Below are positions 10,648 through 46,638 of a stretch of DNA of 64,000 bases, piece by piece. The position numbers and the translations under genes are program-made. Positions within the stretch are counted from its first letter, which is position 1; every line of letters starts with the position of its first letter. The DNA comes from an uncultured Clostridia bacterium. Its GTDB lineage: Bacteria > Bacillota > Clostridia > Christensenellales > Borkfalkiaceae. A model generated the notes under the pieces. The model searched no databases. It saw only the letters and a list, made by a program, of their open reading frames with translations, and was not told the origin of the DNA. Location: positions 124,001 through 188,000 of the forward strand of contig CAMWME010000001.1 in assembly GCA_947175325.1 (NCBI GenBank), in the 5' to 3' direction.

Positions 10648-12452
10648 AAGTTTTCTTTTAAATAATCGTAAATATTCTGCGCTATCGCCTTGGAAATTCC
10701 GTTAACCTCAGTGAGCTCTTCAACGCTTGCACTCATAATTCTGTCAAGCGTTCCGAACTTTTCCAAAAGCGCCATACGCTTGACTTTGCCAACTCCGTCA
10801 ATTTCCGAAAGCACACTTTGAAGGTTGCGCTTCGAGTGCAGATTTCTGAAATAGGTTATCGCAAAGCGATGCGCCTCGTCGCGAATTCTTTGCAACATTT
10901 TCAACGAATAATCGCGGTGAGGAATTTTCACGCTTTCGTCGGAGTATAAGGTGAAAACCTCTTCCTCGCGCTTGGCAAGGGAAATAAGCTCTATCCCTTC
11001 TACATTCCTACTATCAAAAATTTCTTTTACCGCGGAAAGCTGACCCTTACCACCGTCTATAATTATTAAGTCGGGCTTTGGGAACCTATCTTCCTCGTCA
11101 GAGCCGAGCTTGTCAAGCCTACGAGTCAACACCTCTTGCAACGATGCAAAGTCGTTCGCGCCCTCTACCGTTTTTATTTTAAAGCGGCGGTAGCTGCTTC
11201 TGTCGGCTTCACCGTCGATAAATACTACCATCGAACCGACTTTATCTACCCCGCTGATATTCGAAATATCGTAGCATTCCATTCTACGCGGGTAAGCTTT
11301 AAGGGACAACAGCTCTTGCAAGTGCTTGCAAGCGTTCACTGTCATATCGTCTTTGTGCTTGATTTTGTCAATCGATTTTTCAAGATATTCTTCGGCGTTC
11401 TTCTTCGCCATTTGTAAAAGCCTTGCCTTATCGCCTTGTTTTGCGAGGGTTACTTCAACGCTTTTATCGAACTTTTCTTTGAAATATGTCTGCAAAAGCT
11501 CCTTTTCGCAGAATTCTTCGCAGATGATTTCGGAGGGCACCTCGTGGTGCTGATAGTATTGAACCATAAAGGCAGTCAACGCTTCGCCGTCGGTCAAATG
11601 CGCCTCGTCCAAGGCAAAAGAACTTCCGCCTTGCATTATTCCTTTACGCGTAACTAATATGTTAACTGAGGAATACAGCCCGTTCGTGGCGTACGCGATT
11701 ATATCCGCGTCAACGTAGCGATTCAAAGAGGTTATACGCTTTGCTTCGAGTTTAGAAAGCATTTCAAGCTTTTTCTTGTAATCAAGGGCAAGCTCAAAGT
11801 TCTCGTTCTCAGCGGCGTTAAGCATTTTATTTTGCAATAAGGTTTCCGCATCTTTATAGTTGCCGTCAAGAAAGCTGAGTGCGTTTTTTACCCGCACGGC
11901 GTAATCTTCTTTGCTGATTCTGCCCGCACACGGTGCAAGACACCTACCTATGTGATAGTTTAAGCATTCGCGCTTTTTGCCCGTGGTTGCCGTGTGGCAA
12001 AGGCGCACGTTGAAGGTTAATTGCAGAATTTCAAGGATATCCTTACAGCTTATGCCGCCCATAAACGGCCCGAAGTATTTGCCTCCGTCCTTCTTTATTT
12101 TGCGGGTTATGGAAAAGTTAGGGAAGTCTTCCCGCATATTAACTTTTACGTACGGGTAAGTTTTATCGTCCTTTAAAAGAATATTGTACTTGGGCTTGTA
12201 CTTCTTTATAAGGTTGTTTTCAAGCGCAAGCGCGTCAATTTCAGATTCGGTTATGATATAGTTGAAATCACGGATATTTTCAACCATTTTCATAACTTTT
12301 TCGGGCTTTTCGGAACTGTGGAAATATTGGCGCACTCTGTTTTTAAGCACGCGCGCCTTGCCGACGTAGATAATATTCTTATACTCGTCAAGCATAATAT
12401 AAACGCCCGGATTATCCGGAAGCAGTTTTAATTTTTCCTTAATAACGTCCAT
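10644..12452 (-). CDS. uvrC: Excinuclease ABC subunit C
   Basis: UvrC makes both incisions in nucleotide-excision repair with UvrAB. 602 aa, full length. The GIY-YIG nuclease domain (GVYIMLDEYKNIIYVGKA) is at residues 16-33, a Cys-containing linker follows (CLNYHIGRCLAPCAGRI), and a UVR motif is near residue 205. The RNase H-like nuclease domain contains ECYDISNISG and IIDGGKGQLSAV. C-terminal helix-hairpin-helix repeats are present (EIDGVGKVKRMALLEKFGTL). It is first in a run with the HAD, U32 and mutS2 genes and has its own promoter just upstream. Confidence 0.98.
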   Translation of the reverse strand: MDVIKEKLKLLPDNPGVYIMLDEYKNIIYVGKARVLKNRVRQYFHSSEKPEKVMKMVENIRDFNYIITESEIDALALENNLIKKYKPKYNILLKDDKTYPYVKVNMREDFPNFSITRKIKKDGGKYFGPFMGGISCKDILEILQLTFNVRLCHTATTGKKRECLNYHIGRCLAPCAGRISKEDYAVRVKNALSFLDGNYKDAETLLQNKMLNAAENENFELALDYKKKLEMLSKLEAKRITSLNRYVDADIIAYATNGLYSSVNILVTRKGIMQGGSSFALDEAHLTDGEALTAFMVQYYQHHEVPSEIICEEFCEKELLQTYFKEKFDKSVEVTLAKQGDKARLLQMAKKNAEEYLEKSIDKIKHKDDMTVNACKHLQELLSLKAYPRRMECYDISNISGVDKVGSMVVFIDGEADRSSYRRFKIKTVEGANDFASLQEVLTRRLDKLGSDEEDRFPKPDLIIIDGGKGQLSAVKEIFDSRNVEGIELISLAKREEEVFTLYSDESVKIPHRDYSLKMLQRIRDEAHRFAITYFRNLHSKRNLQSVLSEIDGVGKVKRMALLEKFGTLDRIMSASVEELTEVNGISKAIAQNIYDYLKENL

Positions 12453-35560: not shown

Positions 35561-36103
35561 TTATACTATGATTATTACCACTCTGAAAACCACGTTTATT
35601 AAAAGCATTAAAATTATACCGTCAATAAGCGCAAGTACGAGCGGCACGAAGAAGGCGTACTTCGCATCGAAGTTTTTACAGATTTCGGTTATAATACAGC
35701 ATATCGCGAAGGACAAAACCGTTGCGGGCACGAAAACGAATACCGCAACTATTATCCCGCCTACCGAGCCGACGCATATAAGGATTACCGTATATATGCC
35801 GAAAAACAGTCCTTTCAAATACAAAAATATTAACGTTACGTATTTGAATTTGGTTAAATAGCAGATTAAAAAGAATACGTAAAAATAGAGAACGTCCGCA
35901 AGAAAATGCGTAAAAAACAGCGGCGTGTTTTTAAAGTTGAAAACGTTGTACACGTAATCATTTGCGAAATTGATAAAGTATACGTTCGTCGTAACGGGTT
36001 TATACAATACGATACCGCACACTATTGAGCATAAAAGCGTTATAATAAACGCCAAAACGTACCTTTTATCACATTTTTTTACGGAAAACGACAAATTCCT
36101 CAT
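35561..36103 (-). CDS. spoIIM: SpoIIM-like sporulation membrane protein
   Basis: About 180 aa with five or six transmembrane helices. After a basic N-terminus, the segment YLKGLFFGIYTVILICVGSVGGIIVAVFVFVPATVLSF matches the SpoIIM/DUF95 pattern of a G-rich helix pair. SpoIIM forms the DMP septal peptidoglycan machine with SpoIID and SpoIIP during engulfment. Its place between spoIVB and a dac gene supports this. The start ATG at 36103 lies in the 3' arm of a perfect 14-bp hairpin and no good ribosome site is visible; an in-frame TTG at 36109 is the alternative. Confidence 0.65.
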   Translation of the reverse strand: MRNLSFSVKKCDKRYVLAFIITLLCSIVCGIVLYKPVTTNVYFINFANDYVYNVFNFKNTPLFFTHFLADVLYFYVFFLICYLTKFKYVTLIFLYLKGLFFGIYTVILICVGSVGGIIVAVFVFVPATVLSFAICCIITEICKNFDAKYAFFVPLVLALIDGIILMLLINVVFRVVIIIV

Positions 36104-36124
36104 ATACAATTATATGAGGAATTT
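36093..36124 (-). repeat. Perfect 14-bp inverted repeat over the spoIIM-like start codon
   Basis: AAATTCCTCATATA (36093-36106) and its complement (36111-36124) around loop CAAT. On the minus-strand RNA it begins five bases after the stop of the displaced spoIVB tail and covers the ATG of the next gene. It may be the ancestral spoIVB terminator and could mask the start codon. Confidence 0.75.
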
Positions 36125-36128
36125 CCGC

Positions 36129-36200
36129 TTAATATGAACTCATCATTTTATCTATTCCGATTCCGTAGCCGCGCGTGGGGTCGTTTATGAATACGTGGGT
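36129..36200 (-). pseudogene. Displaced original 3' end of spoIVB
   Basis: Read on the minus strand the 72 bases encode THVFINDPTRGYGI, then GIDKMMSSY and a stop. This is the same peptide end as intact SpoIVB (THVFINDPTRGYGI, AIDKMLDSY) but with several synonymous and a few conservative changes. It has no start codon. It is the old end of the chromosomal spoIVB gene, separated by insertion of the 9.5-kb island. Confidence 0.85.
36175..36200 (-). repeat. Left attachment-like direct repeat (attL)
   Basis: 26 bases (beginning gtggggtcgtt on the plus strand) that recur exactly at 45668-45693. Similarity continues, imperfectly, only on the spoIVB-tail side. The sequence diverges abruptly after base 36200. 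Confidence 0.85.
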
Positions 36201-36285
36201 AAATGTCAATCAGTTATAAGGATGTATTTTTTCATAATTCGTGTTTTTTAACAAAAATGTAAATTTTTATGACAAAATTCTTATA

Positions 36286-36561
36286 CTATATTTTCATAGT
36301 ATAAAAGCTCTCCAAAATATTTTGAAGCGTTGGCCCCTTTTTTGAAAAGCCTACTTTCACAGGAGTATCTCCAACTTTAAAAAGATAAGGATTACCTATT
36401 TGAACCATAAAAGATAAAATGCGTTCAAGAACCAGTAAATTTGGATCAATATGTACATCAGTTATATCTTTTAGTTCTTCTAATTTTGCATCATTAATAT
36501 TAATTGATTTATAATATTCTAATCTTTGTTTTAAATTTTCTATTTCTTCTTTTGTATTCAT
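36286..36561 (-). CDS. DUF6870-like small protein
   Basis: 91 aa, starts ATG after a strong AAAGGAG ribosome site. The N-terminal half is charged and helical, then DITDVHIDPNLLVLERILSFMVQIGNPYLFKVGDTPVKVGF, which fits the DUF6870 pattern (ERI..F..QIGNPY.F..G...VK..F). That family occurs mainly on integrative and conjugative elements of Clostridia and has no known function. It is the first gene inside the left end of the island. The assignment is from memory of the pattern. Confidence 0.65.
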   Translation of the reverse strand: MNTKEEIENLKQRLEYYKSININDAKLEELKDITDVHIDPNLLVLERILSFMVQIGNPYLFKVGDTPVKVGFSKKGPTLQNILESFYTMKI

Positions 36562-36742
36562 TTTATTCTCCTTTGAAATTAATTTTTTAATACTGAAGTT
36601 TAGGGGAAAAGAATCTAATTCTTACCTGGCAGTAGATGGAATATTAACCTCATTTTATAAAATATTTTTACGCTAAATGTGGATTATTGCTATCGCCTTT
36701 TTAAATTATAAACCTAATTATTTCTAATTAAAAATATGGCAT

Positions 36743-36779
36743 AAAAAAAGAGATAGCGAAAAATTGCTATCCCTTTTTT
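36743..36779 (-). terminator. Intrinsic terminator in the island
   Basis: GAGATAGC/GCTATCCC stem extended by A/T pairs, with one mismatch, loop of eight, and TTTTTTTA on the minus strand. It follows the remnant ORF ending at 36778. From 36562 to 36742 I see no gene. Confidence 0.8.
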
Positions 36780-37027
36780 AGTTAAATTTCTTTTCGATTT
36801 TATTAATCCAAGACGTATCAGCTTGCTCAAGTTTATAATAATTCAATAAAATTCGTACTTGGTACATCTTCCCATTTACTCGAGATAGTTGCTAAATTGG
36901 CTTTCATATTAGAATAATTTGAAAAATTAACTTGCTTCATAATTGTTTCCCGCTGATTCGCTTTTGCCTGATATTCCTCTACTCCAGTCAACTTTTTTAT
37001 AAGCTGCGAATTTTTTGCTTTATAAAT
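36778..37027 (-). pseudogene. Frameshifted C-terminal gene remnant
   Basis: On the minus strand one frame reads about 60 codons of coding-like sequence (LIKKLTGVEEYQAKANQRE, then MKQVNFSNYSNMKANLATI) and stops. The next frame continues directly with LNYYKLEQADTSWINKIEKK and a stop at 36778, followed by a terminator. A single frameshift near 36850 would join them. An in-frame stop precedes the segment and no start is present. I do not recognise the family. Confidence 0.45.
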
Positions 37028-37130
37028 TTAATTCGTACGTATATTCAAACTATATCTATTCTCTTTTCACAGGCAATTGAACAACATGTGTTTTATCTTT
37101 TCTGGTTATAAATACATTTCTATCGAGTTT

Positions 37131-39494
37131 TCAATGAGGTTTGATTTCAACAACAGCATCTTCAAAAGTTTGAATTTGATATCTCACCGCAATTCTGAGT
37201 ACTGCATATTTTTGTGATATAAGTTGCTCTATTTCTTCACGAGAAAGGAAAGTGCCTTCAAATACATACTGACCATCAGCACGCTTATATCTTTCTACTT
37301 CTTCGCTAAGCTCTTCTACTGTTAAATCTCTAACACTAAACTCCGTAAATTCAAGGTTAAAAGCAAATCCACCATCTTTAACTAAAATATATCCATACAA
37401 AATACGACTTTCGAATCTATTAGCTTTTGAGCATAATTTTTCAAACTGTTGCTTTATCGAATCACTTTTCATGAAATATCTTATGCGCTCTACGGATTTA
37501 TTAATAAATACAAAATCTTCATGTAATACTGAAACCATATCTTTATCAAAGTCATCACTTCGGCTTATTGGTTTAGCTGATACACTTGATTTAAGTTCGT
37601 GGAATAAAGACTTTATTATTGTATTCCCCATCACCTCTTCATAATTTGTAGCTCTGCTCGCTTTTTCGATCAAAATAGCCATAGCTTTCGGAGATGATGT
37701 GATTTCAATGCTAGAGTCAAATCCCCATTCGTCTTGGACAGCATCAAGTATCACTTTCTTATATCCATCCGCTATCTTCTCATTTTCTTTACTAACAGCT
37801 TGAACACTCTCAATAAATAAGTCTGCTTTTCTTAATCCATTAATAAAATTGAATAAGTTATTTGATCGTTCTTCAAAAGCAAGGAAATATTGGAAAGGTT
37901 CTTTGCCTAAGCCATAAAACTCTAATATAGATTTCATCTTATCTAAAACAATAAATTTTTTATTCTCGTCAAAACACTTCTCTCCTATATCTTTAAGATA
38001 AAATTTACAGTGTTCATCTAAACATAAAGTTGAATAATCAAAATCATGTACTTGATAAGAATTGAGCACATGAATTAAATACCATCGTAACGCATATCCT
38101 CGATCCAATTGGACCCATTGAGCTTCAAAATATCTTGGAACATCCCAACTCTTTTCACTTATAGAAAAGTATTTCATAAATTTTTCAAAATTTATCTTAA
38201 AGTCATGTGAAAAATGTGTATATAGATTTTTCCAAGAATATATTTTTGTATGATTTACAATATCAGAGTAATCCAAGTATTGGCTTATTGCCGCTTTCAA
38301 TTCTGTTGAAGCATTTTCTGAATCATTGCAAAGGAAATAGAACTGCATACTAACTAATGCGAATACAATAGATTCATAATTATCGTGACCTAGATCATAA
38401 TAACTAATAGAAAATCTTTCTTGTAGAGCTTTTACAAAACAAAAGTCGCCATCTCGGACCGATAGCGTAACCATAGAAAGTACAGTTGATATTATAAACT
38501 GTACTTTTTCTTTTTCGAACTTATCCTCTGAAAAATTATTATATTTTAAAAAGAATAAACTATCCGCTATTAACGATGTAGCCCTGTCATTATATTCGGG
38601 TAACTCTTTTAATCTAAAAAGAACACGCGTAATATAATGTTCATAGCTTAAAAAATACTCTCCAAGAATACCTGAAAGATCTAAATTGAAACTTATTAAC
38701 TCTTCAACATTATCAAATAGACTGCCAGCGCAACTTATTCGAGATTGCTTCGACTCTATCTGTTGTAATTCAAACGCCACATCGCTTTGTATTTCCAACA
38801 GTTTGAGAATTAAAAACTTATTAAATGTTCTATTCTTTGATTTAAGCAACTCGTATGTATCTTTAAGAGTTTTATGATTAGTTATCAGATATTTCAAGAC
38901 TGCTTTTAAGTCTTTCGGCAAATCTTGCGGAGATTTCCATTCTCTCCATAAACGATTCCTTACAGTTTTTATCAAAAATCTTTCGCTTTTTATCATTAAC
39001 GGTATTTCACACCAAGCGACATAGATACAAAACAAAATTGCAACAATCGCTACTCCAATAGAAGCTATGACCAAATTTGCGATATAAAATGCTACATTTA
39101 AGGCGGATAATAGTATAGCTAAAATTATAAATATAACAATTGTATACCGTAATCCCACTCTCAAATTATTGAATTCTTTTACGGAAACTCCCCAGCATTC
39201 TTCTTTTAGTAAGGTTATAGCAATACCTATGGTTGAAGCTATAAATGATACAATAGCAGTAATAATCTGACATAAAACACCAATTGCATTTGTGTCCCAT
39301 TTTATACAATCATACTTTGTATCACAAATCGACAACGAAATAGCCACAGTAATTATTGCAACAAATAGAATATTTAGCAAAATAAACCAAATGTTATCAT
39401 AATTGGTTCGTATAAACCACTTGAATGTTTCGCATCTATTTTTAGTTTGGTCTTGCTTTTCTTGCTTTAATAACTTTTCTTTTGCATTCTTCAT
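37131..39494 (-). CDS. 787-aa membrane protein with large cytoplasmic helical domain, unknown
   Basis: Not recognised. A Lys-rich N-terminus of about 30 residues is followed by four transmembrane helices: WFILLNILFVAIITVAISLSI, IITAIVSFIASTIGIAITLL, then a pair around residues 117-165. About 600 residues of mainly helical, soluble sequence follow, without Walker, nuclease or HExxH motifs that I can see. The architecture, a membrane anchor with a large cytoplasmic effector or scaffold part, resembles proteins of mobile defence islands, but that is only analogy. No promoter close to the start is convincing. A TATAAT lies about 70 bases upstream, at about 39570. Confidence 0.75.
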   Translation of the reverse strand: MKNAKEKLLKQEKQDQTKNRCETFKWFIRTNYDNIWFILLNILFVAIITVAISLSICDTKYDCIKWDTNAIGVLCQIITAIVSFIASTIGIAITLLKEECWGVSVKEFNNLRVGLRYTIVIFIILAILLSALNVAFYIANLVIASIGVAIVAILFCIYVAWCEIPLMIKSERFLIKTVRNRLWREWKSPQDLPKDLKAVLKYLITNHKTLKDTYELLKSKNRTFNKFLILKLLEIQSDVAFELQQIESKQSRISCAGSLFDNVEELISFNLDLSGILGEYFLSYEHYITRVLFRLKELPEYNDRATSLIADSLFFLKYNNFSEDKFEKEKVQFIISTVLSMVTLSVRDGDFCFVKALQERFSISYYDLGHDNYESIVFALVSMQFYFLCNDSENASTELKAAISQYLDYSDIVNHTKIYSWKNLYTHFSHDFKINFEKFMKYFSISEKSWDVPRYFEAQWVQLDRGYALRWYLIHVLNSYQVHDFDYSTLCLDEHCKFYLKDIGEKCFDENKKFIVLDKMKSILEFYGLGKEPFQYFLAFEERSNNLFNFINGLRKADLFIESVQAVSKENEKIADGYKKVILDAVQDEWGFDSSIEITSSPKAMAILIEKASRATNYEEVMGNTIIKSLFHELKSSVSAKPISRSDDFDKDMVSVLHEDFVFINKSVERIRYFMKSDSIKQQFEKLCSKANRFESRILYGYILVKDGGFAFNLEFTEFSVRDLTVEELSEEVERYKRADGQYVFEGTFLSREEIEQLISQKYAVLRIAVRYQIQTFEDAVVEIKPH

Positions 39495-39727
39495 CTTAAT
39501 ATGATTACCTTACAACAACATTTACAACATGCTGCCATACAAAATTTCTTACATTTTAATTTGTGCTTTTATTATATCACATGTCAATAAGAAGCACAAG
39601 ATAAACACCAAAATATAAAAATATTTTTAGAATAAAATGTTGCTCTATACTTGTTTGTAAAGTCTCATATTCTCGCTGTACAAGTCGAATGTAACAAGTA
39701 AATAGCTTTATTAAAATTACAATAAAA

Positions 39728-39753
39728 AAGCAAGCCATATTTCGTGCTTGCTT
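39728..39753 (-). terminator. Intrinsic terminator after the PHP gene
   Basis: AAGCAAGC/GCTTGCTT arms around a 10-nt loop, followed by TTTTTTATT on the minus strand. It marks the end of the five-gene island operon. The rest of 39495-39797 shows no gene. Confidence 0.85.
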
Positions 39754-39797
39754 CGTAGCTAAAATAAAATATTTAGCTTGACATATTTTTTGATGCT

Positions 39798-40694
39798 TTA
39801 CGCTTGGTTCCACTTGAAGACATTAATAATAGAAGAATCAATATCCTTTACATCACTATGTGCATAAATCAACGAACTCTGCCACGGATCTTCTAGACAG
39901 TTATGTTCACTATGAAAGTCTGTTGCAATAGATTCAAGCAGATTATTATTCAGAGCAAAATTATGTAGCACTTCAACTTGATGTGAATCAAATCCAAGAT
40001 AGTAGGTTTCAATTCCGTCCAGTCCATAACCAACTAATATTGACAAAAGACTCGCAACTTGTTCTGCTGTTAAAACAACTTTATAACCTTTTCTAATGAT
40101 AAAGGGATGCGCCCAAATTGCTTTCCCACCACAGCGATGAATAGCTTCTATACCCTCACGTATCGAGAATCTATTATTTGCGTATGGTGCATACGCAGGA
40201 GAATCCAATAATAACTTGAACACCTCCGAAGTGGAATGAAAGTACCCCTGTCTAACCAATTCTTTTGCTATTAGAGTACGGCGCAGAATCAATCCATCAC
40301 TGTTTATAATGTTTATTAATTCCATTCGTCGATATTCACCACTCTTGAGAAAATTGAACAACTCAAACAATTTTTTAGATTGTTCAATTCGGTTCTTATC
40401 CAATAGTTGCTTCATTAAGCTAGAATTAATCCCTAAACCAACAATGTGCATTGTATATGAGTCAGAAAAATCCAACTCTCCTTGAAAATTACAAGTTAAC
40501 TCTATTCCAGGAATATACTTTAGTCCTTTCTCAATAGCCAAGTTAAGTGCTATTGAATTCGCTAATACTTCATCGTGGTCAGTAATAGAAAAATAGGTTA
40601 TTCCTTGAGCTTGGAGAGTGCTAACAATTTGAGCTACCGAATACTCACCATCGCTAAAGTTAGAATGAATATGTAAATTAATGTCCGTCTTCAT
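39798..40694 (-). CDS. PHP-domain phosphoesterase
   Basis: 298 aa. All PHP metal-binding motifs are present: NLHIHSNFSDGEYS at the N-terminus, SITDHDEVLA, GIELTC near residue 63, KAIWAHPF near 190 and SIATDFHSEHN near 255. It resembles the YciV/RNase AM group, which hydrolyses 3',5'-nucleoside bisphosphates or short RNA 5' ends, or histidinol-phosphate-type substrates. The island operon context suggests removal of a phosphate or nucleotide group from a small product. The substrate is unknown. Confidence 0.88.
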   Translation of the reverse strand: MKTDINLHIHSNFSDGEYSVAQIVSTLQAQGITYFSITDHDEVLANSIALNLAIEKGLKYIPGIELTCNFQGELDFSDSYTMHIVGLGINSSLMKQLLDKNRIEQSKKLFELFNFLKSGEYRRMELINIINSDGLILRRTLIAKELVRQGYFHSTSEVFKLLLDSPAYAPYANNRFSIREGIEAIHRCGGKAIWAHPFIIRKGYKVVLTAEQVASLLSILVGYGLDGIETYYLGFDSHQVEVLHNFALNNNLLESIATDFHSEHNCLEDPWQSSLIYAHSDVKDIDSSIINVFKWNQA

Positions 40695-40724
40695 ATACTC
40701 AAACTACGGTTGACCTGACTGTAA

Positions 40725-42851
40725 TTATTTTTTCTTTTTTTCCTTCTTGTTTTTTTTCTTTTCTGCCTTTGGTTTTCTTGCGCATTTATTTTTAATCCCC
40801 ATAAAAATTCTATAAAAGATATTCCGCTTGTCTTTGTTGGTCGTTTTTATACCAACAAACGAAACTGCAACAACCAAAAGTGCACCAAAGGAAAGAATAC
40901 TTTGAAATAATCCTTGTCCAAGCATGTAGTTTCTAGCCGCTTCCCAATAAGAATCCACATTTAGATTCTTGGGTAAATATAGTATAAACCCTATAAACAA
41001 CCATAACAGTCCTAATGAAAGAATAATTAGTGCTGCCCAAATAGTAATATGGAATCTAGTTCTATCTTCAATAGCTTTCTGTTCTTCAAGTTCTCCATTT
41101 AATTTTTTATTTGTTTCTTCCAGCTCTTCAATCTTAGATTTCCTTTCCTGGGAAGTTTTATATTGCTCATAACTATAGTCTCTTGAGGCCGCAACACTCT
41201 TAAGTAAAGCTTGCGTTAATTTTTTTTCACTTTCATCCTCAAAACATGAACAAATTAAATTAAACTTCCCTATGTATTTTTCTGCAATAGACATTCCTTC
41301 TATCTTTAACAAGGCACGTAATACTATTGCGGTCGTAAGCACATCACTTTCCCAAGATGCATTATTAAGACGTCTTGCGCTAACAAATCGCTCGAAAATA
41401 TTAATGACATCCTCTGCGGTCAATGCCTCTCCATTGTATAGCACCTCCATCGCGCACTCATACAATGAAGTGGAATCGTAGTCGACAGATTTGCTGCCTT
41501 TCTTTAACGCAAAAGAATGTTGATCGGATACATTCGTTTTATCAAAGTGTAAACCAAGCTCAAAACAATCACTTATAATGTGAGCGGCTTCCGTAGCATT
41601 ATCTACTCCATCAAACGAAAATGGAGCATTGGAATTTTTATTAATATTATGCTTTTGCAAATAGTCGAATATTTTCTTTTTTATATAACTGTTTGGTGTT
41701 TTCCCGATATGCGAATACAGCAACGCAACTTCTTTCGTAGTATCAAGGGTATCCCATTTCTCAGCTTTATCATCCAGCCTACTTTCAATCCAAACGAGAC
41801 CCAAATCCACCCATTTTTTAATGATTGACTTTTCTGCAATAAGTACAGTGGAATTTGTTTCATCTCCTGGAATAACAAAAGAAAGAGCTGTACGAATAGG
41901 TAATACTCGTTCTTCCTCTTTAAGACACCCATTTAAAACCCGCTTATCACAAACCAAATTATACTTTGCACGTTCTTCAATACGATTATAATCTGTCTGG
42001 GGATCAATAATATCACGAGAAGTATAATGGACATTTACCTTCTTTAATAGCGACTCAATTTCGCAATTGCATGAATTCGAAGACGAATAAAAAACACATT
42101 TGGATGAATCTTTACATTTTAGTAAATTAATAGCAGGTCGGCCACGACAAATATACGATATCATATTTTCCAACAAAGGTAACTGTTCCTGCAAATCAAC
42201 TGGCAAGGTAGTAATGACTATTCTTTTTGTGTCGCTTCCCGAACAGATACAAATGGGATCCGATTCACCATCTATTGTGTAGCGAATAGGCCCAGAAAAA
42301 TATGCCATTTGATAATCCTTAATAAATCCAGGAGCAATGGCTTCTCTAAAAGGATTTTTTAATGCTTGATTTACAAATGTTTCCTTTATTATGTTGTTGG
42401 GATATTGAAGTAAGATACTATCGGAATTAAATTCCACCTCACCGATGGTTTGTTTACTTAATTCGATTGGAGATACCGAATACAAGCCCTTTTCAGCGCA
42501 TGCATCAAATATACTTGGGTCAATAATGTCTAAAATTTGATTGTTTGTCAGCAATCCATACTGCATTAAAATTAGGACACCATGTCCAGCTTTTATAAAT
42601 TCGGAGATATCTGATTTATGGTTTTCTAATTCATTTTTTACATCCAAATCATTACTCGTATTAGAGCAGATAACAAGCGAATCAAACTTCCCTAATTTTA
42701 AGAACGCAAAGCACTCGTCAAAGGTTTCCTGAGTAAAAATAACAAAATCATATATGTCTGATTGACGAAATTGTCTTACATAATTTTTTAGGTTGGAATA
42801 AGGGTAAGCAATCATCTTACCAGAAGTCATTAATACAGCAACTTTATACAT
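40725..42851 (-). CDS. GATase-like / alpha-toroid-like membrane protein, unknown
   Basis: 708 aa. Residues 1-235 look like a class I glutamine-amidotransferase-like (ThuA-like) fold: FDSLVICSN, FIKAGHGVLILMQYGLL, RIVITTLPVDLQEQLPLLENM. No Cys-His-Glu triad is evident, so it is probably a binding domain. Residues about 360-560 have helical repeats such as NASWESDVLTTAIVLRALLKIEG that recall terpene-cyclase or alpha2-macroglobulin alpha/alpha toroids. A coiled coil (about 565-600), two transmembrane helices and a Lys-rich cytoplasmic tail follow. It overlaps the ligase gene by eight bases, so it belongs to that operon. Confidence 0.72.
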   Translation of the reverse strand: MYKVAVLMTSGKMIAYPYSNLKNYVRQFRQSDIYDFVIFTQETFDECFAFLKLGKFDSLVICSNTSNDLDVKNELENHKSDISEFIKAGHGVLILMQYGLLTNNQILDIIDPSIFDACAEKGLYSVSPIELSKQTIGEVEFNSDSILLQYPNNIIKETFVNQALKNPFREAIAPGFIKDYQMAYFSGPIRYTIDGESDPICICSGSDTKRIVITTLPVDLQEQLPLLENMISYICRGRPAINLLKCKDSSKCVFYSSSNSCNCEIESLLKKVNVHYTSRDIIDPQTDYNRIEERAKYNLVCDKRVLNGCLKEEERVLPIRTALSFVIPGDETNSTVLIAEKSIIKKWVDLGLVWIESRLDDKAEKWDTLDTTKEVALLYSHIGKTPNSYIKKKIFDYLQKHNINKNSNAPFSFDGVDNATEAAHIISDCFELGLHFDKTNVSDQHSFALKKGSKSVDYDSTSLYECAMEVLYNGEALTAEDVINIFERFVSARRLNNASWESDVLTTAIVLRALLKIEGMSIAEKYIGKFNLICSCFEDESEKKLTQALLKSVAASRDYSYEQYKTSQERKSKIEELEETNKKLNGELEEQKAIEDRTRFHITIWAALIILSLGLLWLFIGFILYLPKNLNVDSYWEAARNYMLGQGLFQSILSFGALLVVAVSFVGIKTTNKDKRNIFYRIFMGIKNKCARKPKAEKKKNKKEKKKK

Positions 42852-44241
42852 GACTACCTCCTATAAAAAATTCTTTTACCTTTGCAATATTTATTTTTCC
42901 GCTACCATTTTTCGGAATCATATCGTATGTAATGTGCATAGTTTTAGGAATTAGCTGATTTTTAACAAGATGCTTTTGACAAAAATTTTTCAATTCAAAC
43001 TCGGTGGGCAATGATTTTTCAGGAGAGATTGTAATCCACGCAACTACCCTTTCTCCTCGAAAATCATCAGTTATTCCAATTACTATGCATTCTTCCACAT
43101 CACTATGTCTACACAAAACCTCTTCGATGGTGGCAGGATATATATTTTCACCTGCGCATTTTATCATGTTAGAAACACGCCCCCAAATATGGAAATTCCC
43201 TTCTTCATCTGAGCTTACAAGATCTCCGGTGCTATAATAATCGTTAAACTCAACTATCTGTCCATTGTTAAACAATGCACTAACAACCCCTTCACCTTTA
43301 AGGAACATTTGTCCAGTCGAATCAATAATGGCATCATATCCTTTAACAATTTTGCCTATCGAATCATGCTCGTTTATAGAGGAATTGATTGTAGTAAGAC
43401 AAATACCTGACCCTTCGGCACTTCCCCACGATCTTATAATCGATGCATTAGGAAATATCCCCTGAATTGTTTCCTCAGCCTTTATGGATAATAGCCCTCC
43501 CGCACACTCAATGATAAGCTTTTTGGGTTTATTAATTGCATATAGGCTTTCTTTTATAGCAAGCAACTGACTAGGCACACATTCTATGTGATTTACGTTC
43601 TTCTCTTCGATTAATCTCGCTACTATCTCTGCTTCTGAATTTTCAACTAATACTGCCGTACCTCCGCAAAACAATGCCCGCATAAATGACTCGCAAATAT
43701 GCATACTCGCAGAAAACAACGACATATAGATTAAAGTTTCGTCATGACGATATTCTTCGCATACATATTTTGCGTTGGCATACATATTCTGCCATGATGC
43801 TATCGCGTATTTTTTCGTACCCGTTGAGCCTGAAGTTGCGTTAAGATGCTTTCCTCTAAAGCAATCCATTAATTCTGCAGGAACATCCCCTTTTCTAATT
43901 AGCCTATAACAAGCGTTTCTTAAAAGGAATTTCATTTCGTTTGGGTTTTTCTCCGTTGGAACAACATAAACTGTGTGCGGAGGCAAATTAGTTTCTTCGC
44001 CATTAATAGGGCAACACGCTATACCGGAATTCACTAAAGCTAAAAAGATAATTATTGAATTGATATTTTTCTCTGCAACAAAGCATACAACATCATCTTC
44101 GTTCAATCCAATTTTACATAGCTCATCAGACAGTTCGAAAATGTCCGATACAAGAGTCGCATAATTAATATCGGAATCTCTATCAATTAGAGCGATTCCA
44201 TCAAAATTACTGATTCTTTTAAGAAACTCTTTTGTGGTCAT
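42844..44241 (-). CDS. AMP-dependent acyl/aminoacyl ligase (adenylation enzyme)
   Basis: 465-aa ANL-superfamily enzyme. Phosphate-binding loop TSGSTGTKKYAIAS near residue 137, A5 motif SWGSAEGSG near 285, A7 YSTGDL, hinge and A8 IWGRVSNMIKCAGENIYPATIEE, and A10 PKNGSGKINIAK with the catalytic Lys. It activates a carboxylic acid with ATP and should load it on the acyl carrier protein encoded directly upstream (overlap of four bases). The specificity code is unread. It is shorter than fatty-acyl ligases and comparable with DltA-type or BCL-type stand-alone domains. Confidence 0.92.
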   Translation of the reverse strand: MTTKEFLKRISNFDGIALIDRDSDINYATLVSDIFELSDELCKIGLNEDDVVCFVAEKNINSIIIFLALVNSGIACCPINGEETNLPPHTVYVVPTEKNPNEMKFLLRNACYRLIRKGDVPAELMDCFRGKHLNATSGSTGTKKYAIASWQNMYANAKYVCEEYRHDETLIYMSLFSASMHICESFMRALFCGGTAVLVENSEAEIVARLIEEKNVNHIECVPSQLLAIKESLYAINKPKKLIIECAGGLLSIKAEETIQGIFPNASIIRSWGSAEGSGICLTTINSSINEHDSIGKIVKGYDAIIDSTGQMFLKGEGVVSALFNNGQIVEFNDYYSTGDLVSSDEEGNFHIWGRVSNMIKCAGENIYPATIEEVLCRHSDVEECIVIGITDDFRGERVVAWITISPEKSLPTEFELKNFCQKHLVKNQLIPKTMHITYDMIPKNGSGKINIAKVKEFFIGGSHV

Positions 44242-44480
44242 TTCAATTTCCCATGAACAATCTCTACTATTGCATCTACATGCAATAAGTCTTGTAATTC
44301 TTTCTCATTAAAAACGATATCAAACACATCTTCTATGCTTACTTTTATGGATAAAATATCCAGAGAATCTGCATATAAATCTTTTTGCAGATGAGCATTA
44401 GAAGCAATTGAACTAATATCACACCCCAACTGACGCACAATGATTTTTTTAATCTTATTTTCTACTTCTGCTATTGTCAT
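44238..44480 (-). CDS. Acyl/peptidyl carrier protein
   Basis: 80 aa. The phosphopantetheine-attachment motif is DLYADSLDIL with Ser at about residue 39, in a four-helix carrier fold (IVRQLGCDI...IEDVFDIVFNEKELQDLLHVDAIVEIV). It is not the housekeeping fatty-acid ACP, which has the motif DSLDTVEL, but a dedicated carrier. It overlaps the ligase and acyltransferase genes by four bases on each side, so the three proteins are made in fixed ratio. Confidence 0.93.
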   Translation of the reverse strand: MTIAEVENKIKKIIVRQLGCDISSIASNAHLQKDLYADSLDILSIKVSIEDVFDIVFNEKELQDLLHVDAIVEIVHGKLK

Positions 44481-45118
44481 TTGCCCTCCTTCGGTTTCCT
44501 AATATAGCAAATTTGTGCTGGATTACCAATAACCACTGCACCGTCCGGTATATTTTTCCTAATAACAGAACCAGCACCAATTGTTACATCATTACCTATT
44601 TTTACACCGTCCAAAATCAAAATGTTTGCCGCTCCCCATACATTCTCACCAATGGTTATACCTTTGTTTGACTCGGGCTGCAACCTGAATGGCTTTGATC
44701 TATCATTTTCGTCAAATGTATGATTTGAGGCGACAATAAACGACAATCCAGCGATTCCTGAATTGCGTCCAATTTTTATTCCGCCTTGTCCATAAATTAC
44801 ACAATTGGGGCCTATACGCACATTCTCGCCTATATAGATGCTCCCACCATAAGAATGTATCTTGGTTCCTTCTCGTATGCGACTATTTTTACCTAAATGG
44901 ACTCCGCATTCACCATTGGAGCTCCCATCAATTAAAACTCCTTTGCATATAGAAACACCATCTTCGATGATGATTTTATCAGGATGTTCAAACACAACAT
45001 CACTATCAATATCAGTGTTTTTGCCAAACGATAAAAAAGCTCCTTTAATGAAAAACATTCTAAATTTGCTATTAAAGGAGTGCAATTTTTTACCTAAACG
45101 AAAGAAAAGTTTTCCCAT
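44477..45118 (-). CDS. Left-handed beta-helix (hexapeptide) acyltransferase
   Basis: 213 aa. About eight to ten hexapeptide coils (IGENVRIGPNCVIYGQGGIKIGRN, IGENVWGAANILILDGVKIGND), the catalytic His loop SNHTFDE as in maltose/galactoside O-acetyltransferases, and the usual end GAGSVIRKNIPDGAVVIGNPA. With the carrier and ligase it could transfer an activated acyl group to a sugar, lipid or peptide. The ATG is six bases after the amidohydrolase remnant, with no good ribosome site of its own, which suggests it was once translationally coupled to that gene. Confidence 0.92.
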   Translation of the reverse strand: MGKLFFRLGKKLHSFNSKFRMFFIKGAFLSFGKNTDIDSDVVFEHPDKIIIEDGVSICKGVLIDGSSNGECGVHLGKNSRIREGTKIHSYGGSIYIGENVRIGPNCVIYGQGGIKIGRNSGIAGLSFIVASNHTFDENDRSKPFRLQPESNKGITIGENVWGAANILILDGVKIGNDVTIGAGSVIRKNIPDGAVVIGNPAQICYIRKPKEGK

Positions 45119-45123
45119 TATTT

Positions 45124-45285
45124 TTATTGTTTGATTTTTCCTTCAACGATTGTATAGCCAATATACAAATCGCTATCCAGCACAGCTATTATATCCGCAT
45201 CATTATCTTTACGAATACATTCCTTTTGAGGATAGAGATTCAATTCTTGAGTAGGATTTTTCGTTATCCTATCAATTAGCTTTTC
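45124..45285 (-). pseudogene. C-terminal remnant of an amidohydrolase (isoaspartyl dipeptidase-like)
   Basis: 54 codons open on the minus strand just before the acyltransferase gene: KLIDRITKNPTQELNL, then IRKDNDADIIAVLDSDL and YTIVEGKIKQ, stop. This is the typical end of amidohydrolases (NPA..L.....I..G.DADIIVLD..L....T...GK), and closest in feel to IadA-type beta-aspartyl peptidases. A stop codon lies in frame just upstream and no start exists, so the rest of the gene is lost. Confidence 0.6.
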
Positions 45286-45290
45286 TTATT

Positions 45291-45319
45291 ATTATAGCAT
45301 ATTTATATTTAAAACGCAA
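45291..45319 (-). promoter_or_regulatory. Possible promoter of the island operon
   Basis: TATAAT (45291-45296) with TTGCGT (45314-45319) at 17 bp on the minus strand, immediately upstream of the amidohydrolase remnant and the acyltransferase gene. Confidence 0.45.
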
Positions 45320-45542
45320 TGAATTAAAAAATAAAATTTAATACTTATCTCTTATTGGAGCGGTAACATTGAAATTTGTTAAATTACGACATGATTCCAG
45401 TATTTAATTTATCAAACTACACAAATTTTAATGGTAAAAACGGGTTTTACGTAATTTGTCGTTTTATGCACAAAACTTGTACAAAATTTCTACAAAATTA
45501 GACAGAAAATGCAGGCGCATTTTCCATTAAATGATAGAAAAG

Positions 45543-45586
45543 AAAAACGGTCGTATCAAGCAAAATCGCTTAATTTGACCGTTTTT
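45543..45586. terminator. Terminator after spoIVB (island-supplied)
   Basis: Outer stem AAAAACGGTC/GACCGTTTTT with an inner AAGC/GCTT pair. T-runs follow on both strands. It lies 36 bases after the spoIVB stop on the minus strand, within the island. Confidence 0.8.
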
Positions 45587-45621
45587 TTATATATAATATT
45601 GTATAATTTTGTCTATTTTAT

Positions 45622-46638
45622 TCAATAAGAGTCGAGCATTTTGTCTATTGCAATTCCATATCCGCGTGTGGGGTCGTTTATGAATACGTGGGTTACCGCG
45701 CCGATAAGCTTTCCGTTCTGTACGATAGGGCTTCCGCTCATTCCTTGAACTATTCCGCCCGTCTTTTCAATTAGGCGCTTATCTTCTACTTTTATTACGA
45801 AGTTTCGGTTGTCTTTATTGTTCTTATCAACCTTAACTATTGAAATTTTGTAGGTTTCAGCCTCTTTGCCGTACACTGTCGAATAGATATACGCCGTGCC
45901 TATACTTACTTCGTCAAGCGACGCTTTGCTAACCTTTATAAGGTTAGAGCAATTAAAGTTTTCGGCAAGTTTACCGTAAACTCCGCACGGGCAGTTTACT
46001 TCCGCTTGACCTATAACCGAGCTTTCAAACGCACCGCGAAGCTCGCCCGGGGTTCCTCTTACACCCTTTTTAACGTCGTAAATGAGGCTGTTATAAACCG
46101 TACCGCCGTTTATTTGAAGCACTCGGTTAGTGCCGTCGGTTATCGGGTGACCGAGAGAGGCAAATTTATTATTAGTTTTATCTATATAGGTTACGGTACC
46201 TACGCCGTTTATGCTGTCTTTAACAAGTACGCCGATGCGCTTGCCGCCAGAAGCCAAATCTTTAACGGGGGTTACTGGCAAGGTCAGCCTTTCACTGCCG
46301 CGGAGGACTTCCACTTCGTACTTTTTATATTCTCTTGCGATAATCGCGTTTATATCAGAGGTTTTGTTTACTTCCTCGCCGTTTATCTTGTCGATAACGT
46401 CGCCCGCTTGAATTCCCGCATCGCGTGCCGGAGCACATGTGCCTCTTTCAGTCAGAACTTCGCAAATGCCAACGATTTCAACTTTGGTAGTGCTTAACAC
46501 GAACCCCGCGGGGAAACCGCCAAGATACAGTCCGTCCCCCGTTTCGGCAGAAGCAGCAAACGGCGCAAAGACGAACGCGCACAAGATAACCGCAACAAAC
46601 AATACCAATGCTTTAAATGATTTCTTTCTGTAAAACAT
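45622..46638 (-). CDS. spoIVB: SpoIVB serine peptidase (S55)
   Basis: 338 aa. Made in the forespore and secreted to the intermembrane space, where it cleaves SpoIVFA and starts sigma-K activation. Signal or anchor helix (ALVLFVAVILCAFVFAPFAASA), PDZ domain (ARDAGIQAGDVIDKINGEEV) and S55 peptidase domain with the catalytic Ser in GGIVQGMSGSPIVQNGKLIGAVTHV. The last 23 codons are supplied by the inserted island and the displaced original codons lie at 36129-36200. The reading frame is intact. spo0A, which usually follows, is absent here. Confidence 0.95.
   Translation of the reverse strand: MFYRKKSFKALVLFVAVILCAFVFAPFAASAETGDGLYLGGFPAGFVLSTTKVEIVGICEVLTERGTCAPARDAGIQAGDVIDKINGEEVNKTSDINAIIAREYKKYEVEVLRGSERLTLPVTPVKDLASGGKRIGVLVKDSINGVGTVTYIDKTNNKFASLGHPITDGTNRVLQINGGTVYNSLIYDVKKGVRGTPGELRGAFESSVIGQAEVNCPCGVYGKLAENFNCSNLIKVSKASLDEVSIGTAYIYSTVYGKEAETYKISIVKVDKNNKDNRNFVIKVEDKRLIEKTGGIVQGMSGSPIVQNGKLIGAVTHVFINDPTRGYGIAIDKMLDSY
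45668..45693 (-). repeat. Right attachment-like direct repeat (attR)
   Basis: Exact copy of 36175-36200 within the spoIVB frame. Crossover anywhere in these 26 bases keeps SpoIVB intact. Confidence 0.85.

Follow-up and report, generated by a model that had tools for sequence, protein, structure and literature searches.

A 9.5-kb island in the last codons of spoIVB that supplies the gene with a new 3' end

The locus and the question

How does a stretch of foreign DNA come to lie within the last codons of a sporulation gene and leave that gene whole? The question is raised by a 64,000-nucleotide stretch (the window) from the genome of an uncultured Clostridia bacterium (GenBank assembly GCA_947175325.1, contig CAMWME010000001.1, positions 124,001 to 188,000), in which 9.5 kb of AT-rich DNA, here called the island, separates an intact spoIVB gene from a second copy of its 3' end. 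Comparison with related genomes indicates that the island is probably site-specifically inserted, without a recombinase of its own, and derived from large-serine-recombinase elements of a family whose target is a single spot near the 3' end of spoIVB; it was probably moved in trans. In the following, G000 is the source genome of the window, other G numbers are genomes compared with it, L numbers are loci, and C numbers are contigs.

The island and the two spoIVB tails

The features that define the locus are as follows; lengths are in amino acids (aa) or nucleotides (nt).

45622..46638, minus strand: spoIVB, 338 aa, intact, with the last 23 codons supplied by the island (open reading frame; Peptidase_S55, 6.4e-72, and PDZ; protein 97% identical to that of G009)
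45689..45690, minus strand: putative 2-bp crossover core CA on the spoIVB side (from element junctions compared across genomes)
45354..45693, minus strand: conserved left end of the island, comprising the spoIVB tail, stop, terminator and ~190 more nt (alignment with G229 and G439)
45543..45586, minus strand: island-borne terminator hairpin after the restored tail (predicted by folding; similar hairpin in the G229 and G439 left ends)
36286..36561, minus strand: DUF6870 protein, 91 aa (PF21757, 2.1e-23; 61% identical to a G013 protein and 60% to a G466 protein, these relatives being encoded immediately ahead of the recombinase genes in their elements)
36198..36280, minus strand: right (P-type) end of the island, ending in ..TTATAACTGATTGACATTTACC before CA (aligns with G439 over ~80 nt, and with the recombinase elements over the last ~30 nt)
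36196..36197, minus strand: putative 2-bp crossover core CA on the orphan side (from element junctions compared across genomes)
36129..36200, minus strand: orphan native spoIVB tail, THVFINDPTRGYGIGIDKMMSSY and stop (94% identical to the G009 native tail)
36094..36124, minus strand: native spoIVB terminator-like hairpin (read from the sequence; a hairpin of this kind, CTCATAT..TATATGAGG, follows spoIVB in most relatives)
35561..36109, minus strand: native downstream gene for a 182-aa membrane protein (directly after spoIVB in 62 of 70 genus loci)

The first-pass annotation described an exact 26-bp repeat at both ends of a 9.5-kb AT-richer region, with an orphan spoIVB tail at the left and the intact gene at the right. 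All of this is borne out, the complete open reading frame (ORF) of spoIVB included. The copies of the repeat lie at 36175-36200 and 45668-45693, nested in a 70-nt repeat (83% identical); among the direct-repeat families listed for the 11-kb region, none is longer. The GC content, which the annotation had proposed to compute, is 0.326 in the island versus 0.437 in the left flank and 0.431 in the right flank. In 1-kb segments, the island ranges from 0.28 to 0.39, and the DNA outside it has a mean of 0.435 and a minimum of 0.349, so that single segments overlap slightly.

Translated in the direction of spoIVB, the orphan copy ends in THVFINDPTRGYGIGIDKMMSSY and the intact gene in THVFINDPTRGYGIAIDKMLDSY, each followed by a stop. 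These tails differ at 13 of 72 nt, spread over 10 codons, with 6 synonymous changes, 3 amino acid changes, and TAA versus TGA as the stop; the earlier description of the differences as mostly synonymous is therefore fair. The 72-nt gene end at 36200-36129 is not preceded by a gene body. The tail of the intact spoIVB is the one supplied by the island, and the native tail has been displaced to the far end. Since the spoIVB reading frame is complete in the window, the sporulation gene is not interrupted by the island. A chance origin of the repeat is excluded, because it consists of homologous coding sequence and the relatives have an empty site. Its 26 bp of identity exceed the probable crossover core because the carried tail is conserved coding sequence.

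Empty site and exactness of the insertion

The gene for the 182-aa membrane protein starts 19 to 144 nt after the spoIVB stop in 62 of the 70 loci with intact spoIVB ends taken from a 93-genome sample of the genus (the G431 stop is misread in one row), including those of the nearest relatives, G009 and G004; the same gene adjoins the orphan tail in the window. The eight loci in which it does not adjoin spoIVB are those of the window, G229, G439, G007, G444, G440, G032, and the second copy in G010. Thus, the empty site that the first-pass annotation suggested looking for is found in G009 and G004, and the flanks of the window, joined in silico at the core, reproduce the G009 arrangement. Per 75-nt segment, the joined flanks are 0.83 to 0.95 identical to G009 upstream (0.95 in the last segment) and 0.87 to 0.99 downstream (0.95 in the first), and the island-borne tail shows a DNA identity of 0.75 to the G009 native tail. 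G004 displays the same pattern at lower identity, and the downstream side of G444 is unlike that of the window, with another gene there. The nearest-tail comparison covered 69 tails found by motif, four entered by hand and the window orphan included. An exchange that looks this exact and shows no donor flank favours site-specific recombination and disfavours homologous import.

G007 was considered as a further case of the same mechanism and rejected: its spoIVB tail is of the native type, and the membrane gene lies beyond ~6.3 kb of other genes. The first gene after this tail is one that we take to be prfA-like, and what is presumably a similar prfA-like start is seen in G444 within the 626 nt before the contig end. 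G007 (L042) and G444 (L095), in which this gene takes the place of the membrane gene after a spoIVB with a native-type tail, are distant members of the genus.

Recurrent insertion and two classes of elements

Insertions at this spot of spoIVB are found in 9 of the 93 genus genomes searched. Six truncate spoIVB (G006, G011, G013, G035, G466, and G470), and three leave it whole (the window, G229, and G439). There are eight orphan tails in seven genomes, namely one each in G000 (the window), G006, G011, G013, G229, and G466 and two in G439. On a spoIVB tree of 73 rows, built without G458, G431, and the second G010 copy, the nine insertions need nine changes, all within a single group of 27 rows (support 92); by parsimony on this gene tree, each of the nine is shown to be a separate insertion. 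The tail-carrying G229 and the truncating G035 are close sisters on this tree. A GTDB-wide scan with an exact pattern, which is blind to variants such as the mutated core of G229 and does not necessarily cover the genome of the window, yields 10 sites, all in metagenome-assembled genomes (MAGs) of uncultured Clostridia, Eubacteriales, or Clostridiales. Six were already in the genus survey, and four are new (L154 and L161 to L163). The search for other insertions in spoIVB ends that the first-pass annotation proposed thus adds eight genus genomes and four further sites, and its proposal that the 3' end of spoIVB serves as an attachment site is supported by recurrent insertions at the identical spot together with the empty sites. 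A scan of a viral collection with a core-plus-P pattern returned 18 stretches, none with a spoIVB tail in the context shown; several of them resemble phage promoters.

In the truncating class, the flank on the orphan side is assembled in three genomes, all of which encode serine recombinases there. Counting from the orphan tail, G013 encodes a 107-aa resolvase-domain protein, large serine recombinases of 570 and 582 aa, and then a DUF6870 protein; G466 encodes two recombinases, followed by a DUF6870 relative; and G011 has two recombinases beside the orphan tail, one with an internal stop. The G006 contig stops 66 nt before the orphan, and no orphan tail was found in G035 or G470. On the spoIVB side, the contigs of both G006 and G470 break off in one and the same protein, which has a weak similarity to TrbL (below the Pfam cut-off); this hints that the truncating elements may be integrative and conjugative elements (ICEs).

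No recombinase was found in the assembled sequence of the tail-carrying islands (those of the window, G229, and G439). The left ends of this class all contain the spoIVB tail and a terminator hairpin, and ~190 further nt are common to the window, G229_1, and G439_2; from 45640 on, 286 to 288 nt of the window match G229 (76%) and G439 (72%). The window holds a single island. The two orphan tails of G439, spread over two contigs, differ in that one comes with an element left end and the other with the native tail. Island 1 of G439 includes a 29-aa match to a recombinase C terminus (48% identity, E = 0.001), possibly a vestige.

Two further arrangements were seen at spoIVB. In G229 (C1:647000-713700; L084, L085, L131, and L132), ~66 kb, much of it with ordinary-looking genes, lie between spoIVB and the membrane gene, with an orphan tail and element-type end 24 kb into this stretch. 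L088 (G048, C17), from another family, contains from position 11577 a second spoIVB tail of ~40 codons, 3.4 kb downstream of spoIVB and near the contig end; this tail is preceded by TTGACA, and its homology begins near the GLSGSPI codons, further upstream in the gene.

Junctions, core, and element ends

Comparison of the junctions shows that the base before CA depends on the host on the gene side and on the element on the orphan side, and that the base after CA behaves in the opposite way. This switch between host and element bases places the crossover at the CA dinucleotide, which is probably its 2-bp core. A very short core is expected of serine recombinases.

The right end of the window island was compared with six other spoIVB right ends, and in each case the similarity was reached by 0 of 300 shuffles; judged from these alignments, the right ends of the tail-carrying and truncating classes are homologous. 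TTGACA precedes the core by six bases in 12 of the 12 spoIVB right ends checked, including that of G229, whose core is mutated to CG. Thus, the island ends at the spot, and with the right end, used by the recombinase elements of G013, G006, G466, and G011, with CA as the putative core.

The left ends distinguish the two classes. That of the truncating class bears TATAAT, and the circular joint would read TTGACA-17-TATAAT in all four elements with both ends known. The window island lacks a left end of this P' type: tail-carrying islands have the spoIVB tail where TATAAT would be and keep only the TTGACA half. The circular junction of Tn4451 and Tn4453 (TnpX) reportedly forms a promoter (title of Lyras and Rood 2000), and the truncating spoIVB elements and those in spoVAD (below) would form a joint of a similar kind, in contrast to the tail islands. 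Whether the truncating left end might be a degenerate spoIVB tail was asked in 30 comparisons (five left ends, one of them from spoVAD, by six tails; 300 shuffles each). G466 gave the best pairs, its similarity being reached by 1 of 300 shuffles with G439_1, by 4 with G229_1, and by 6 with G439_2; G470 with G439_1 came next (8 of 300), all others being reached by at least 17 of 300. A clear resemblance exists instead to the left end of the spoVAD element, where the similarity was reached by 0 of 300 shuffles for G470, G466, and G013 and by 2 and 5 of 300 for G011, depending on the side shuffled.

Past TATAAT, the truncating left ends (L033, L035, L038, L092, and L094) show, by eye, a stretch containing GGAG(G) and, after it, a short hairpin with a T-run; a promoter on the circle would yield a short terminated transcript. 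When the right and left ends of the recombinase-class elements at spoIVB and spoVAD (L032/L033, L034/L035, L083/L091, L036/L094, L185-L204, and L216) are joined, the result is TTGACA-17-TATAAT (or TATTAT), a promoter-like joint that integration would split, with a spacing of 17 in four of four and ten of ten cases.

Cargo and the search for a recombinase

Between its ends, the island encodes the following.

44477..45118, minus strand: hexapeptide (LbH) acyltransferase, 213 aa, cargo (Hexapep, 8.3e-15; WcaF/WbbJ-like, far below cut-offs)
44238..44480, minus strand: acyl carrier protein, 80 aa, cargo (PP-binding, 6.6e-7; acyl carrier protein models below cut-offs)
42844..44241, minus strand: AMP-forming acyl ligase, 465 aa, cargo (AMP-binding, 5.9e-24, and C-terminal domain)
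40725..42851, minus strand: 708-aa protein, cargo (no family match in Pfam or NCBIfam)
39798..40694, minus strand: PHP-domain phosphoesterase, 298 aa, cargo (PHP, 1.2e-8; similar to nucleoside-bisphosphate phosphatase/RNase RNM, below cut-offs)
37131..39494, minus strand: 787-aa protein, cargo (no family match in Pfam, PADLOC, NCBIfam, or PHROGs)

The 708-aa protein is present in 1 of 396 genomes of the order, that of the window itself. For this protein and the 787-aa one, Pfam, NCBIfam, and PHROGs give no match, and a PDB search gives E values of 0.15 or worse; an assignment of the 708-aa protein to HEC-01B (PADLOC) is not believed, as the match is weak (E = 0.003). Rfam has no matches over 35900-46000. 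The cargo differs in the other tail-carrying islands: that of G439 includes an OLD/Gabija-like ATPase-nuclease and an HD protein, and that of G229 AAA+ and helicase proteins and MATE and ABC transporters.

The absence of a recombinase inside the island, already remarked on in the first-pass annotation, holds in both searches made. No recombinase domain is found by Pfam in the eight main ORFs, smaller overlapping ORFs being outside the scan, and tblastn of the island with four queries (the three resolvase/recombinase proteins of G013 and the spoVAD recombinase) finds none, with a single 21-aa match at E = 0.97. Tyrosine recombinases were likewise not found by Pfam among the ORFs scanned, which are 8 in the window, 14 in G229 (the larger ones, part of that island being outside the scan), and 5 of the 6 larger ones in G439 island 1. 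In searches made without a ccr-specific model, no serine recombinase of the ccr kind and no helper was found in the island, and matches elsewhere in its own genome are confined to spoVAD and C3.

Origin and movement of the island

Several observations point to descent from recombinase elements with loss of the recombinase genes: the right end and target are shared with those elements; DUF6870 stands at the right end with no recombinase between; and G439 retains the possible vestige. The conservation of the left end in three lineages, together with the exactness of the insertion, suggests that tail islands spread as units. We infer that a helper recombinase from a co-targeting element acts in trans. 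The single site of the island, made of the P half, the CA core, and the spoIVB tail as the other half, would be joined to the CA core of the chromosomal spoIVB, which would give the gene a new tail and terminator and shift its original ones to the other end of the island. The forespore is where spoIVB acts in Bacillus, and its chromosome becomes that of the spore. As the forespore chromosome is inherited, excision in the mother cell would be no remedy for an interrupted spoIVB, and carriage of the tail would avoid this cost. A forespore gene would thereby be spared, whereas a skin-like element interrupting such a gene would have to be lost from the genome of the spore.

Several points weigh against this interpretation. 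Matches in its own genome to a recombinase of the spoIVB class are limited to that in spoVAD, at 43% identity, and to a partial match on C3, and present-day mobility is unsupported. Serine integrases are normally taken to join attP with attB, and the site of the island would look like attR, with a P half and a gene half. Tail islands of this class occur in only three genomes of the genus; the G439 tandem spans two contigs, with the second island mostly unassembled; and the mutated core of G229 (CG) suggests decay there. Finally, the right end of the window island is only weakly similar to spoVAD right ends, with 1 and 17 of 300 shuffles scoring as high.

A more specific version, advanced only tentatively, is that these islands form a class of cassettes with a half attachment site of their own, in which a helper joins an attR-like circle (P-CA-B') to the host gene (B-CA-B'). 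If this is true, every insertion rebuilds both the gene and the target site, tandem pile-up becomes possible, and the cassettes break the rule of attP x attB, forming an integron-like cassette array anchored on a sporulation gene.

The rival that survives best, though we consider it unlikely, is that the island is a dead remnant: a complete element truncated spoIVB and lost its recombinases and left end, spoIVB was repaired through homologous recombination with foreign DNA that brought a spoIVB tail and terminator, and the island is now immobile. Loss of recombinases is itself likely, as DUF6870 adjoins the right end here and is set apart from it by recombinase genes in G013 and G466, and the possible vestige in G439 and the lack of a spoIVB-class helper among the matches in its own genome fit this course of events as well. 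However, the left end with tail and terminator recurs in three lineages and is conserved in the window, G229_1, and G439_2, G439 appears to hold two tail islands in tandem, and no foreign tract is seen in the spoIVB of the window up to the core.

Action of a tyrosine recombinase in trans, with the 26-bp identity as its core in the manner of islands in tRNA genes and guaA, is very improbable. Restoration of a 3' end with a direct repeat of tens of bases is indeed typical of tyrosine-integrase islands, but the elements with the same spot and right end encode serine recombinases, the junctions fit a 2-bp core, and the scanned ORFs of all three tail-carrying genomes include no tyrosine recombinase. 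Still less credible is an artefact in which the assembly fused variants from two strains, or a gene tail duplicated in tandem: contigs of relatives (G006 and L161 to L163) do end within ~70 nt of the junction and MAGs can be chimeric, but the window lies within a 270-kb contig, and other assemblies made independently show the conserved island ends again, in one case on a contig of 824 kb. The weakest proposal, a developmental switch in which excision at sporulation swaps the last residues of SpoIVB and its terminator, could draw on the related elements that split spoVAD, with both halves under purifying selection, and on the gin element in gerE, described in the part of the source used here as excised in sporulation (PMC5595907), but it is hardly tenable, since spoIVB is whole with the island in place (the first-pass annotation had likewise held that the island need not be a switch), the proteins encoded with either tail end almost alike, no recombinase is found in the island, and the nearest relatives, G009 and G004, are island-free.

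Split spoVAD genes

A second sporulation gene of the same genome, spoVAD, is split at model position ~201-206 into C7:8458-9069 and C7:22526-22909 (loci L086, L185, and L196). The insert measures 13.4 kb and encodes a serine recombinase of 565 aa next to the C-part. Of the 81 genus genomes in which spoVAD was matched, 17, this one included, have pieces cut at the same point (three with the C-part only, one with the N-part only), and the inserts span 8 to 27 kb in the five genomes with both parts on one contig. A serine recombinase adjoins the C-part in G000, G009, G004, G444, G456, G457, and G463 and lies 2 to 8 kb off in G194, G432, and G454. Homology with the truncating spoIVB class is clear for the left end of the spoVAD element and less clear for its right end. 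In the ten elements with both ends, the joint always has a spacing of 17 between TTGACA and the -10 hexamer, the distance from crossover to -10 having been preset at 8 in the search pattern and the hexamer then read there; the -35 hexamer is TTGACA in nine (TTGACC in G432), and the -10 hexamer is TATAAT in seven and TATTAT in three.

The median ratio of nonsynonymous to synonymous substitution rates (dN/dS) is 0.067 for 11 N-parts and 0.062 for 9 C-parts (without that of G000), versus 0.102 and 0.072 for these regions in 11 intact genes, with dS near saturation; pairs without a computable dS or with dS outside 0-3 were skipped, leaving 42 of 55, 43 of 55, 32 of 36, and 33 of 55 pairs. Both halves are thus under purifying selection, which could predate the insertions if these are recent. 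The split needs nine changes on the spoIVB tree (14 split and 51 intact rows), indicating that it was often gained or lost. The insert looks like a skin-type element. In Bacillus, spoVAD is expressed in the forespore.

Relation to known systems and significance

Staphylococcal cassette chromosome (SCC, including SCCmec) elements without a recombinase of their own exist (ccr-less elements and pseudo-SCC), and the island resembles SCC in sitting at the 3' end of a conserved gene that is left intact, with the empty site in relatives. It differs in that its target is spoIVB and not rlmH, that the carried tail comprises 23 codons and a terminator, and that eight island ORFs have no recombinase domain; the related G013 element has a 570- and 582-aa pair with a 107-aa resolvase-domain protein. 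In the part of the source used here, the cassette chromosome of Enterococcus at rlmH is a serine-recombinase system with a fixed 3' gene target, variable cargo, and several att sites together (PMC6222049). CcrAB is described, in the part of the paper at hand, as joining noncanonical pairs of sites such as attR x attR (PMC5595907), a precedent in kind for the proposed reaction, if not for the same pair.

The gin element in gerE of Bacillus cereus ATCC10987 is a non-phage low-GC island with three serine recombinases (PMC5595907). So far as that partial account goes, it resembles the truncating class as a sporulation-gene island with serine recombinases; it carries its recombinases and is excised in sporulation to rebuild gerE, in contrast to the window island, in which none was found and the gene is intact. 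The Streptococcus ICEs in mutT, traG, and hsdM, with a serine-integrase triplet in one orientation near the target gene and direct repeats of 2 to 8 bp, resemble G013; they disrupt their targets, and none described in the portion of that paper used here hits spoIVB or carries a replacement gene end (PMC4701971). Going by these excerpts, triplet serine integrases, gin in a sporulation gene, and cassettes at a gene 3' end are already known (PMC4701971, PMC5595907, PMC6222049). In the open-licence literature, no paper was found that combines spoIVB and attB, no spoIVB insertion target turned up among the papers listed by broader searches (judged in part by title and the start of the abstract), and a search for split spoVAD found no mention of spoVAD.

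The island suggests a third way for mobile DNA to reside in a sporulation gene, by bringing a replacement gene end, besides interruption with excision (as in skin and gin) and truncation. Such restoration of the tail would let DNA occupy a forespore-acting gene without cost. If half-site cassettes do move in trans, they offer a test of the attP x attB rule in multi-recombinase serine systems. The 3' end of spoIVB is also a practical spot to search for novel cargo, some of it defence-like, in gut Clostridia.

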